Assembly: GCA_016872775.1 (NCBI GenBank)
Contig: VGZA01000004.1
Coordinates: forward strand, 62,001-126,000
Origin: Planctomycetota bacterium
GTDB lineage: Bacteria; Planctomycetota; Planctomycetia; Pirellulales; Pirellulaceae
DNA length: 64,000 nucleotides
Direction: 5' to 3'
Shown: one piece after another, positions 36,380-42,629 of the stretch
Layout: each line of letters opens with the position of its first letter
Numbering within the stretch: the first letter of the stretch is position 1
Position numbers and translations under genes: made by a program
Notes under the pieces: generated by a model
Seen by the model: only the letters and a program-made list of their open reading frames with translations
The model's database searches: none
What the model was told of the DNA's origin: nothing

Positions 36380-37507
36380 TCAGCGGATCGGAGCCGCTTT
36401 GGGGTACGAGCCGAGCACTTCCAGGCGCACGGTGCGCTTTCGCAGCGCGGCGAGCGCCTTCGCGACCTTGGCATCCCGAGCGTGTCCTTCCAGTTCGACG
36501 AAAAACAGGTACTCCTTGCTGGTACCGGGCATCGGAAACGACTCGATCCAGGTCAGGTTCAATCCTTGCGATTTGAACACGGTCATCGCGTCGGCGAGCG
36601 AGCCGGGGCGGTGCGCCAGTTCAAACATCAAAGCGGTCTTGTCGTTGCCCGATGGTTCGGGAGGTTCGCCCCCGATGACCGCGAAACGCGTGAGATTATC
36701 CGGGTTGTCCTCGATATTGGCGGCGACGATATTCAAGCCGTAGTTCACTGCCGCCTGCTGGCTGGCGATCGCCGCGACACCCGATTTCTCCGCCGCCAAT
36801 TGGGCCGCCGCCGCGGTACTCGTCATCTCCACGATCCGCGCGTCCGGCAGATGGCGGGCAATCCAGACTCGACATTGGGAAACCGCCTGCGGCTTGGAAT
36901 ACACTTCCCGAATCGCCTGCCGTTCGCAGCGTGCCAACAACTGGTGGTGGATTCGCAATTGCACTTCGCCACAAATGCGCACCGGATACCGTGCAAACAT
37001 TCCCAACGTGTCGACAATCCTGCCATCGGTGGAATTCTCGATCGGCACCAGTCCGAAGTCGGCATGTCCCGCTCGAATCTCGTCGAAGACGCCGGCGATG
37101 GTCGTGACCGCCGCCAACTGAGCCGACGTCCCGTATCGCTCCACGGCCGCCTGGTGGCTGTAACTATAGGCAGGCCCAAGGTAGGCAACTCGCACCGGAC
37201 AAAGCAGCGCCTGGCAACCGCTGCGCAACTCGCGCAGAATCGCCTGCAGACTCGAAGCTGGAAGCGGTCCCGAACTTGCCGCCAGCCAGCGGGCTTCCTC
37301 CTGCGTTCGCCATTCGTCCGCCGCCCCGGAATCGACCGTCCCGCGCAAACGGGCCAATTCCCAGGCCGCACGTTCGTTCAAGAGTCCAACGATTTCGCCG
37401 TCTAACCGCGACAGATTCTTTGCTGCCTCATCCGTCACCGCTCCATCCGCCGGTCGGCGTTCGGCGGGCCCCCGTCCCGTTGGCCCCTTCTCGCGCCCTT
37501 TCGCCAT
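36380..37507 (-). CDS. pheA: Chorismate mutase/prephenate dehydratase (P-protein)
   Basis: 375 residues. Start at the ATG at 37507, which has GGAGG 6 nt upstream. Layout: AroQ-type helical N-terminus (LSRLDGEIVGLLNERAAWE), prephenate dehydratase (VAYLGPAYSYSHQAAVERYG, VPIENSTDGRIVDTL), and ACT domain (FELAHRPGSLADAM). The usual ESRP phenylalanine-sensing motif is ESFP here. It converts chorismate to phenylpyruvate. With aroF it supplies the phenylalanine branch. Confidence 0.92.
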   Translation of the reverse strand: MAKGREKGPTGRGPAERRPADGAVTDEAAKNLSRLDGEIVGLLNERAAWELARLRGTVDSGAADEWRTQEEARWLAASSGPLPASSLQAILRELRSGCQALLCPVRVAYLGPAYSYSHQAAVERYGTSAQLAAVTTIAGVFDEIRAGHADFGLVPIENSTDGRIVDTLGMFARYPVRICGEVQLRIHHQLLARCERQAIREVYSKPQAVSQCRVWIARHLPDARIVEMTSTAAAAQLAAEKSGVAAIASQQAAVNYGLNIVAANIEDNPDNLTRFAVIGGEPPEPSGNDKTALMFELAHRPGSLADAMTVFKSQGLNLTWIESFPMPGTSKEYLFFVELEGHARDAKVAKALAALRKRTVRLEVLGSYPKAAPIR

Positions 37508-37806
37508 CTTGCACCTCCAATTACTTGATTCCGATTGCGTCGCCCCACAGCGATTCACTCGCGGCCGGCCTGGATCCACGAAAAACGCCGGCCCACGGGC
37601 CACCCGCCTCGTGCCCGCTTCTTGTAGTTCGATCCGCCGCCGGTTGTCAACTTGGCGAATGGGCAATCCATCTTGTCAAAATGGCAGAACCTTAATCCGC
37701 CTTCCACGTGCCCGAACTAGCGGAAAACCGATCTGGCCGTTCCCGCTCGGCGTTGTACCTGTCCAATTACGCGAATTGTACTCGAAATTCCGCTCCATTC
37801 GGTCTC

Positions 37807-37822
37807 TGGCACAAGCTTTGCT
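37807..37822 (+). promoter_or_regulatory. Sigma-54 (-24/-12) promoter upstream of dnaK
   Basis: The 16-bp sequence TGGCACAAGCTTTGCT fits the TGGCACG-N4-TTGCW consensus with one change (G to A). GG and GC are exactly 10 bp apart. Transcription starting about 12 bp after GC would leave a leader of about 114 nt before the dnaK ATG at 37946. An imperfect palindrome around 37766-37784 could be an activator site. Confidence 0.55.
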
Positions 37823-37945
37823 TCCTTCGCAAGGCATCAGGAAATCACTGTCCTAAGCAGAGCGAGACGGCAAAACACGAAATCGAATCACCGCGACCCG
37901 GTCAGGGGGGTGAATCGAGCATTTCTTTTGAAAGGAACCTCAACA

Positions 37946-39868
37946 ATGGCCCAAGGCGAAAAGATCATTGGTATTGACCTGGGAACGACCAATTCCGTCG
38001 TGTCAATCATGGAAGGAACCGAGGCGAAGGTCATTGCCAACGCCGAGGGCAATCGGCTCACGCCGAGCGTGGTCGCCTTCAACGACAAGGGGGAGACGCT
38101 GGTGGGCGAGCCGGCGAAGCGGCAGGCGGTCACGAATCCGACACGCACGATTTACTCGATCAAGCGGTTCATGGGACGCCGGCACAACGAAGTGGAATCG
38201 GAAGAGAAAATGGTGCCGTACAAGGTCGTTGGCGGCGTTTCGGATTACGTCAAGGTCCGTATTGGGGACAAAGAGCATACTCCGCAGGAGATTTCGGCGA
38301 CCGTTCTGAGGAAGCTCAAGGAGGCCGCCGAATCGTACCTCGGTCACAAGGTGAACAAGGCGGTAATCACGGTTCCCGCTTATTTCAACGACGCGCAGCG
38401 GCAAGCGACGAAAGACGCGGGGCAGATTGCCGGCCTGGAAGTCGCGCGGATCATCAACGAGCCAACGGCCGCCGCGCTGGCGTACGGCCTGGACAAGAAG
38501 AAGGACGAGAAGATCGTCGTCTTTGACCTGGGCGGCGGAACGTTCGATGTTTCGGTGCTGCAGGTCGCAGGCAGCGGAGACGACGGCAGTGAAACGAAAG
38601 TCTTCGAGGTCATCAGCACCAACGGCGATACGCACCTGGGCGGTGACGATTTCGATCTGGAACTGATCAACCATGTCGCTGATGAATTCAAGCGTGAAAA
38701 CGGCATCGATCTGCGAAAAGATGTGACGTCGCTGCAGCGGCTGCAGGAGGCATGTGAAAAGGCGAAGAAGGAGCTCAGTTCGCTGCCGCAAACCGACATT
38801 AATCTGCCGTTCATTACGGCCGACCAGACCGGCCCGAAACATCTGCAGGTTTCGATCACCCGCGCGAAGTTCGAGGAACTGGTCGACAAACTGATCGAAC
38901 GGTGCCGGAAGCCGGTGCTGCAGGCATTGAAGGACGCCAAGCTGAACCCGAGCGAAATCGATGAAGTGGTCCTCGTCGGCGGTTCGACGCGCGTCCCCAA
39001 AGTCCAGCGAATGGTCAAAGAGATTTTCGGCAAGGAACCGCACAGGGGAGTGAACGCGGACGAGGTCGTCGCCGTCGGCGCCGCGATCCAGGGCAGCGTC
39101 CTGGCGGGCGATCGCAAGGATCTGCTGCTGCTCGACGTCACGCCGTTGACGCTCGGGATCGAAACGGAAGGCGGCGTCATGACGGCGATCGTCGAACGAA
39201 ACACGACGATTCCGGTGGAGAAGAAAAAAGTCTTCAGCACCGCCGCGGACGGTCAGACGACAGTGACCGTACGCGTGTTCCAGGGCGAGCGGACGATGGC
39301 CCAGGACAACCGGTTGCTGGACCATTTTAATCTCGAGGGAATTGAATCGGCTCCGCGCGGCGTCCCGCAGATCGAGGTGAAGTTCGACATCGACCAGAAC
39401 GGCATCTTGAACGTCACGGCCAAAGACCTGGGTACGCGCAAGGAGGCCAACGTCAAGATCCAGCAGTCCTCCGGCCTGTCCGACACGGAAATCGACAAGA
39501 TGCGCAAAGACGCCGAGTCACATGCCGACGAGGACCGCCAGAAGCGGGAATTGGCGGAGGCGCGGAACCAGGCGGAGCATATGTGCTACGAACTGGAAAA
39601 GCAGATGAAAGAGCATGCCGACAAACTGCGGGATGCCGACAAGGAACCGTTGACCAAAGCGATCGAAAAAGTCCGGCTGGCCGCGAAAGAAACCGACGCC
39701 GCCGCGATCAAGTCCGCCGTCGACGAACTGCAACAGGTTTCAAGCGCCCTGACCAAACTCCTCTACCAGAAGGCCGATAGTCCCGAACCGGCGAAATCGG
39801 CCGCTGCAGGGACGGCCAAACCGGCGGGCGACGATGCGATTGACGCCGAGTTTGAAGTGAAAGACTGA
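37946..39868 (+). CDS. dnaK: Molecular chaperone DnaK
   Basis: 640 residues from the ATG at 37946 (AAGGAA upstream). Hsp70 signatures: [53 protein letters not shown]. The C-terminus is an acidic lid tail ending DAEFEVKD. The cytoplasmic chaperone acts with DnaJ and GrpE, neither of which is adjacent. A sigma-54-like promoter and no CIRCE element precede it. A strong terminator follows, before clpB. Confidence 0.98.
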
Positions 39869-39914
39869 GTCGCGCGTTCCACTCCGGGAAACGGGCGATC
39901 AAACGGAAATTACC

Positions 39915-39961
39915 AGGGTGAGCTTTCCGACCTCCGCGGCCGGAACCTCACCCTTGTTTTT
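39915..39961 (+). terminator. Rho-independent terminator between dnaK and clpB
   Basis: Outer stem AGGGTGAG (39915-39922) and CTCACCCT (39947-39954), inner stem TTCCG/CGGAA, followed by TGTTTTT. clpB begins 17 bp later, so termination here could be partial. Confidence 0.75.
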
Positions 39962-39977
39962 ACACGGGAGGTGACCC

Positions 39978-42629
<2,652 letters not shown>

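Follow-up and report, generated by a model that had tools for sequence, protein, structure and literature searches.

A conserved sigma-54 promoter and a palindromic enhancer upstream of dnaK suggest an activator-dependent chaperone regulon in planctomycetes

The chaperone genes dnaK, grpE, dnaJ and groESL are coordinated by HrcA with its operator CIRCE and by sigma-32. The sigma-54 holoenzyme requires an activator, and DNA looping and the ATP-driven opening of the promoter belong to the established biology of this sigma factor. In the NtrB/NtrC and ZraS/ZraR systems, an activator with REC, AAA and Fis domains (REC-AAA-Fis) acts on a -24/-12 promoter from a palindromic enhancer located about 100 nt upstream. 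The enhancer-binding proteins (EBPs) of Pirellula were reportedly treated by Studholme and Dixon in 2004. At the planctomycete locus described here, the gene set coordinated by HrcA/CIRCE and sigma-32 elsewhere would be coordinated by positive control from an enhancer. If this is true, positive, enhancer-driven control of chaperones joins the known sigma-32 and repressor modes.

Control of chaperone genes by sigma-54 is already known at the level of gene families. In Flavobacterium psychrophilum, promoters with a sigma-54 motif (SM4) were mapped by their 5' ends at groESL, dnaK, grpE-dnaJ, htpG, clpB and lon, a set that overlaps for the most part with the genes proposed to be under sigma-54 here (PMC9723704). 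This species belongs to the Bacteroidota, and the accessible part of the paper names no enhancer sequence and assigns none of three predicted EBPs, whereas the present study puts forward an enhancer together with a single candidate activator. Carrera-Reyna et al. (2025) described, at the COG level, an enrichment of sigma-54 promoters for DnaK, DnaJ, GrpE, GroEL, GroES and IbpA in Planctomycetota (mainly Planctomycetia and less so Phycisphaerae) and in Bacteroidota (PMC12316311). For its Planctomycetia regulon, the main text of that paper contains neither 'UAS' nor 'palindrom', and, according to its authors, EBP specificity was not available for all of the organisms. According to the accessible parts of two further reports, a tandem sigma66-sigma54 promoter lies 5' of hrcA-grpE-dnaK in Chlamydia (PMC8762339), and heat induces dnaK, groEL, clpB, grpE, dnaJ and hsp20 in Rhodopirellula baltica, with rpoH, rpoE and rpoN reported as not regulated (PMC2754498). 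An activator-dependent sigma-54 promoter would explain the induction of chaperones at a constant level of the sigma factor. Judging from sequence comparison, the enhancer, the set of operons and the candidate activator seem to be what is new beside the known sigma-54 chaperone promoters; in our literature search, the scope of which left out most subscription papers, no paper named the enhancer or the activator.

The window, i.e. the whole stretch of 64 kb that was analyzed, carries the -24/-12 promoter TGGCACAAGCTTTGCT at 37807-37822 on the plus strand, separated by 123 nt from the dnaK ATG at 37946. The first-pass annotation had located this site correctly and had given it one mismatch and a distance of 124 bp; we count zero mismatches to TGGCACN5TTGCW, a pattern with no other exact match in the 64 kb scanned. 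The mismatch meant was likely at position 7 (A for G); among the 57 upstream regions compared below, G occurs there in 35 and A in 19. Transcription is predicted to start at 37833 (plus strand), as judged from the usual spacing to the GC of the -12 element, and a Shine-Dalgarno-like GAAAGGAACC lies ahead of the start codon at 37930-37939 (plus). The dnaK gene (37946-39868, plus) encodes an Hsp70 of 640 aa (Pfam HSP70, 841 bits), which among the titled DnaKs compared is most similar (79% identity) to those of Planctomycetaceae/Planctomycetota. Downstream, clpB occupies 39978-42629 on the same strand (Pfam ClpB domains), and its co-transcription with dnaK is uncertain. Between the two genes, at 39915-39961 (plus), the sequence can fold into a hairpin ahead of a run of T residues (-23.6 kcal/mol, z -2.0; an equally good fold in 6 of 200 shuffles), a possible intrinsic terminator or attenuator, and clpB may thus be attenuated or separately transcribed. 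This hairpin was absent from the list of a simple terminator scan; its loop is larger than the limit of 8 in that scan.

By itself the -24/-12 motif is near chance in the window, where 34 matches at two or fewer mismatches were found against 26 expected, and the case therefore rests on conservation. A dnaK match was found in all 60 genomes of the order that were searched, including the source genome. We compared 57 upstream regions of 400 bp from 56 of these genomes, G009 being counted twice; G005, G016 and G034 (no near-full-length dnaK match), G007 (match beginning at a contig end) and the extra G024 copies were left out. With GG and GC in place, the site was found in 57 regions at three or fewer mismatches, in 56 at two or fewer, in 49 at one or none and in 24 exactly, in genomes that are related and are not independent samples. 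The corresponding values were 21%, 5.3%, 0.44% and 0% for dinucleotide shuffles (n = 1140), and 10, 1, 0 and 0 regions for the reverse strand. The GG and GC are constant by construction because the search demanded them, while three further bases, the C that follows GG and the TT that precedes GC, were invariant in 57/57 regions though not demanded. When the regions were aligned on the promoter, two T/A-rich bases directly 3' of the site stood out, and no further element at a fixed position was seen in the 57 regions. RpoN was found in the source genome (1.2e-62), in 57 of the 60 genomes of the order and in 53/53 of the good ones; the first-pass annotation had stated that planctomycetes carry it. 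Judged from its conservation, the window motif is a sigma-54 promoter. The first-pass annotation had proposed this promoter for dnaK and had suggested a comparison with the upstream regions of relatives, which bore it out; its caution about a chance match is valid for the motif taken alone and does not hold once conservation is counted.

An EM search for palindromic motifs 5' of the -24 element in the 57 dnaK regions yielded the core TGYCANNNTGRCA. At the window dnaK the palindrome reads TGTCAAAATGGCA (37674-37686) and is the proposed binding site of the activator, an enhancer (UAS) situated 120 nt from the -24 element. It is the sole match to TGYCANNNTGRCAG in the 64-kb window, where 0.07 would be expected, and one of four places in the 5.85 Mb of the source genome that fit the strict pattern TGYCAWNWTGRCA, compared with one for the backward control. 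Scores above 12 were obtained in 53/57 dnaK regions and in 0.5% of shuffles, the motif having been trained on these same regions. Sixty-six of 67 enhancer sites lie 77-166 nt 5' of the -24 element, and a second site is present in 14 of the 53 regions, spaced 37-40 bp from the first in 11 of these 14. The spacing between enhancer and promoter follows a period of 10.3-10.4 bp (R = 0.41), and phasing as strong was seen in none of 20,000 jittered sets, a test that overstates independence because of the kinship of the genomes. Helical phasing is as expected for a looping activator, and the position of the palindrome at enhancer distance and in helical phase argues for the dependence on an EBP that had been proposed from the window alone; the enhancer, further chaperone operons and a candidate for the activator were absent from that proposal.

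The enhancer was also tested on regions outside the training set, namely those of another order, of other classes and of groES. Both elements were present at dnaK in 7/7 regions from one family of another order and in 22/40 regions of other classes; in the other 18/40, one or both were missing at the thresholds applied. The dnaK set outside the order comprised 48 regions from 104 phylum genomes with a match, of which 28 were taken by score and 20 were hand-chosen; one of them (L158) duplicates the order, leaving 47.

A second palindrome, approximately CGTAAG-N17-CTTACG, was observed in the same material, with scores above 8 in 36/57 dnaK regions compared with 20/2850 shuffles, again for a motif trained on the same regions. 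It lies mostly 16-17 or 23-29 nt 5' of the -24 element, and is present in other classes too (examples are L362:5850-5878 and L059:1398-1426). At the window dnaK it is absent (score -10.2). The element is placed like an IHF site, yet it is symmetric.

The usual regulators were searched for in the genomes of the order. HrcA was found in 0/60 genomes by a search that was positive in 7/14 control genomes. No protein passed the RpoH cut-off in 40 genomes (best 165 bits vs 323), the model being proteobacterial, so that a diverged analogue is possible; the source genome has nine sigma-70-type matches to this model, all under the cut-off. Whereas rpoH is reported for R. baltica (PMC2754498, accessible part), the RpoH model gives no support in the 40 genomes tested here. 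As the first-pass annotation had noted, there is no CIRCE near dnaK, with 0 matches at three or fewer mismatches across the window. A sigma-70-type site was not found in 37500-40000, a scan in which 0.4 would be expected by chance and which did not cover other sigma types. Within the order, the enhancer-promoter arrangement thus seems to be kept in relatives for which the search for the usual heat-shock regulators was negative.

The same pair of elements precedes other chaperone genes. Of the four strict enhancer places in the source genome, two precede dnaK and groES, the sigma-54 site at groES having two mismatches. At the remaining two (L060 and L061), no sigma-54 site with two or fewer mismatches is present, and both are likely chance matches. 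The groEL-groES-groEL-dnaJ-grpE operon of the same genome has an exact sigma-54 site (L362:5818-5833, minus strand) with a slightly looser enhancer upstream. In the order, both elements were found at 23/30 groES loci, and a pattern match was located about 2 kb 5' of a second groES in at least 16 genomes. As the pair is common to dnaK, groES and the groEL operon, the main folding machinery would form one small sigma-54 regulon.

We also scanned the genome collection for the composite enhancer-promoter element without any protein input and obtained at least 117 loci. The gene was taken to be the longest ORF with a start no more than 700 nt downstream; DnaK and GroEL were recognized by signature motifs, and Hsp20, ClpB and GrpE by Pfam. 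Among the 117 loci listed, 77 have a chaperone gene (DnaK 29, GroEL 38, Hsp20 8, ClpB 1 and GrpE 1) and 40 have no recognized chaperone (35 another ORF, 5 no ORF). Titles were available for 80 of the loci listed: 49 are from Planctomycetota, 40 of these being chaperone loci, and the other 31 include 13 chaperone loci. These 13, beyond the Planctomycetota label, are distributed over Poribacteria (4), Gemmatimonadetes (2), Zixibacteria, Eisenbacteria and Bacteroidaceae (1 each) and unlabelled entries (4).

For the activator, we compared ten EBPs of the source genome, which has 11 clear ones, L102 being left out. Extraction by motif missed some EBPs in G030, G043, G101, G132, G151 and G161, which makes the comparison incomplete. 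Among the EBPs compared, one clade, here called family A, was the only one with a member in the source genome and in all eight small genomes of the phylum. A plain reciprocal-hit test with the source copy (L093) recovered it in seven of these eight, and the G060 member (L219) was placed in the family by the tree. The source copy (G000:C1:205159-206520) lies between a histidine kinase gene and mutL, with pnp upstream. Two scanned members have the REC-AAA-Fis composition (PF00072, PF00158, PF25601 and PF02954); in the family, RTLYRK is invariant in the recognition helix and the receiver domain is more variable. Scores of at least 620 bits were found in 56/59 genomes of the order, 80 genomes having been searched overall. 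Six other EBPs of the source genome (L092, L094, L095, L097, L098 and L100) had no reciprocal match in five genomes of other classes, L101 likewise had one in none of five, and L099 had one in two of five.

Linkage to dnaK points in the same direction. Outside the order, 11/47 dnaK loci have an EBP gene as their immediate upstream neighbour in the same orientation. An enhancer scoring above 12 is found at nine of these, in the gap or across the end of the gene, and the other two score 10.3 and 11.1; a sigma-54 site with two or fewer mismatches is present at eight and absent at three. Rooted on L097, a tree of 83 EBPs joins the 11 dnaK-adjacent proteins and family A in an exclusive clade of 24 (support 0.92). 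By best BLAST match, eight of the 11 go to family A, two are nearer to L099 and one is nearer to L096. From these sequence relationships, the dedicated activator is most likely this single REC-AAA-Fis family.

Co-occurrence with the enhancer agrees to some extent. Scores of at least 560 bits for family A were found in 10/11 enhancer-positive and 2/6 enhancer-negative genomes (Fisher P = 0.028), which is weak support, because the positives were chosen by hand and the cut was set after the scores had been seen. Four of the six enhancer-negative genomes are without family A (493-527 bits), and the other two, G067 and G158, have it (649 and 598 bits) with no enhancer at the dnaK examined. G014 and G169 show the reverse, an enhancer with no high-scoring member (490 and 512 bits).

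Family A resembles NtrB/NtrC and ZraS/ZraR in its REC-AAA-Fis architecture and in the histidine kinase that adjoins it in several genomes, but differs in its proposed chaperone targets, in the proposed half-site TGYCA and in a kinase without a recognized sensor domain. The kinase gene adjoins the activator gene in 4/8 loci (the source genome, G030, G038 and G101), and pnp is beside or near it in 5/8 (the source genome, G030, G101, G151 and G161). With a strict pattern, a kinase motif was found upstream in 15/28 distinct genes. In the source genome, HisKA and HATPase are the only domains of the linked kinase. The phospho-acceptor Asp of the receiver domain is present in 26/28 distinct genes. 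It is gone from the activators of G151 (L355:4576-5949) and G161 (L357:4673-6034), beside which no kinase gene was seen, and another input must therefore act there. Unlike the GAFTGA of NtrC-type proteins, the loop reads GAFTDA, GAYTDA or GAFTHA in 23/23 family A genes of the order (e.g. L353:5118-6527), and the same sigma-54 contact loop is GAFTGA or GSFTGA in 5/5 genes from other classes. Autoregulation was examined in 28 distinct genes, 5/38 loci without a protein being left out, and an enhancer was found upstream of only one. This gene, in G038, has an enhancer scoring 23.2 that starts 57 bp upstream and no sigma-54 site with one or no mismatch.

We suggest, with a probability of roughly 80%, that dnaK, groES and the groEL operon form a sigma-54 regulon with the TGYCANNNTGRCA enhancer, which is most likely served by family A. 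The sequences establish that the promoter is conserved, that an enhancer stands in phase with it, that both recur at three operons for chaperones, and how the activator family is distributed and linked. The RpoN holoenzyme would wait at the -24/-12 promoter, and dnaK would be silent until an NtrC-type activator acts. The activator would occupy one or more palindromes about 120 nt upstream, the DNA would loop, and ATP hydrolysis by the activator would open the promoter; the same enhancer-promoter pair would drive groES and the groEL-groES-groEL-dnaJ-grpE operon. Binding of family A to the palindrome is presumed here, phosphorylation by the linked histidine kinase is the simplest guess for the activating input, and the signal would be protein-folding stress. 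A wider proposal, to which we give slightly less than even odds, is that Planctomycetota, together with scattered lineages (Poribacteria, Gemmatimonadetes, Zixibacteria, Eisenbacteria and a Bacteroidaceae among them), share a third, ancient type of heat-shock system, neither sigma-32 nor HrcA. In such a system, one dedicated sigma-54 activator and a conserved TGYCANNNTGRCA enhancer would switch dnaK, groESL, grpE-dnaJ, clpB and hsp20 jointly, and the sensory part would have been exchanged or lost while the DNA site stayed fixed.

Other explanations differ in which part of this arrangement they question. The sigma-54 promoter might add only a second input, most of the dnaK expression coming from a housekeeping or ECF-sigma promoter arranged in tandem with it. 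We regard this as rather unlikely, although tandem promoters are reported in Chlamydia (PMC8762339, accessible part), a basal need for dnaK without stress can be presumed, and the source genome has the nine sub-threshold sigma-70-type matches. The lack of a sigma-70-type site in the interval scanned argues against it weakly, given the chance expectation and the sigma types outside the scan; the lack of any other fixed-position element in the 57 promoter-aligned regions also speaks against it. Alternatively, promoter and enhancer may work as described with a different EBP, for instance that of the REC-AAA family on G000:C17 (L096) or the sensor-less one on G000:C5 (L097). L096 has reciprocal best matches in all eight small genomes, with 49-69% identity in six, and L097 is highly conserved within the order (61-71%); moreover, 27/28 family A genes have no enhancer of their own, and some EBPs escaped the motif-based extraction. 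However, the L096 matches in G132 (44%) and G151 (40%) fall outside the L096 clade of nine (support 1.0), and both genomes nevertheless have the full dnaK module. L097, like L095, has no reciprocal match in G132, G101, G151, G161 and G060, and all 11 dnaK-adjacent EBPs cluster with family A. An activator other than family A is improbable in our estimate, at odds of about one in six.

Two readings would deny the enhancer or the promoter its role. The palindrome could be an operator for a repressor, or could bind a regulator that is not an EBP and lie upstream by coincidence; repressors also use palindromes of such size, and the second palindrome is nearer to the promoter in 36/57 regions. The confinement of 66/67 sites to 77-166 nt before the -24 element, their helical phase and their occasional doubling suit looping oligomers better, and the sigma-54 holoenzyme needs an activator in any case, which makes an operator of this kind very improbable. 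That the -24/-12 match is functionless and due to chance, as the near-expectation count of looser matches in the window might suggest, is already contradicted by the comparative data (the 57/57 conservation, the strand specificity and the phased enhancer) and can practically be dismissed.

Some of the pair-scan loci precede genes of other kinds. By eye, the pair is seen before a GspC-like type II secretion gene at L283, L286, L296, L320, L324 and L350; L283 matches no Pfam family, and the three of these loci with titles are from Proteobacteria or Deltaproteobacteria. A similar site may serve another activator. A methylenetetrahydrofolate-reductase-like gene follows the composite element at L247 (Pfam MTHFR) and, by eye, at L339 and L348. 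The element also precedes HtrA-like trypsin-PDZ protease genes at L244 and L257 (both by Pfam) and at L346 (by eye), which would suit a regulon for protein quality.
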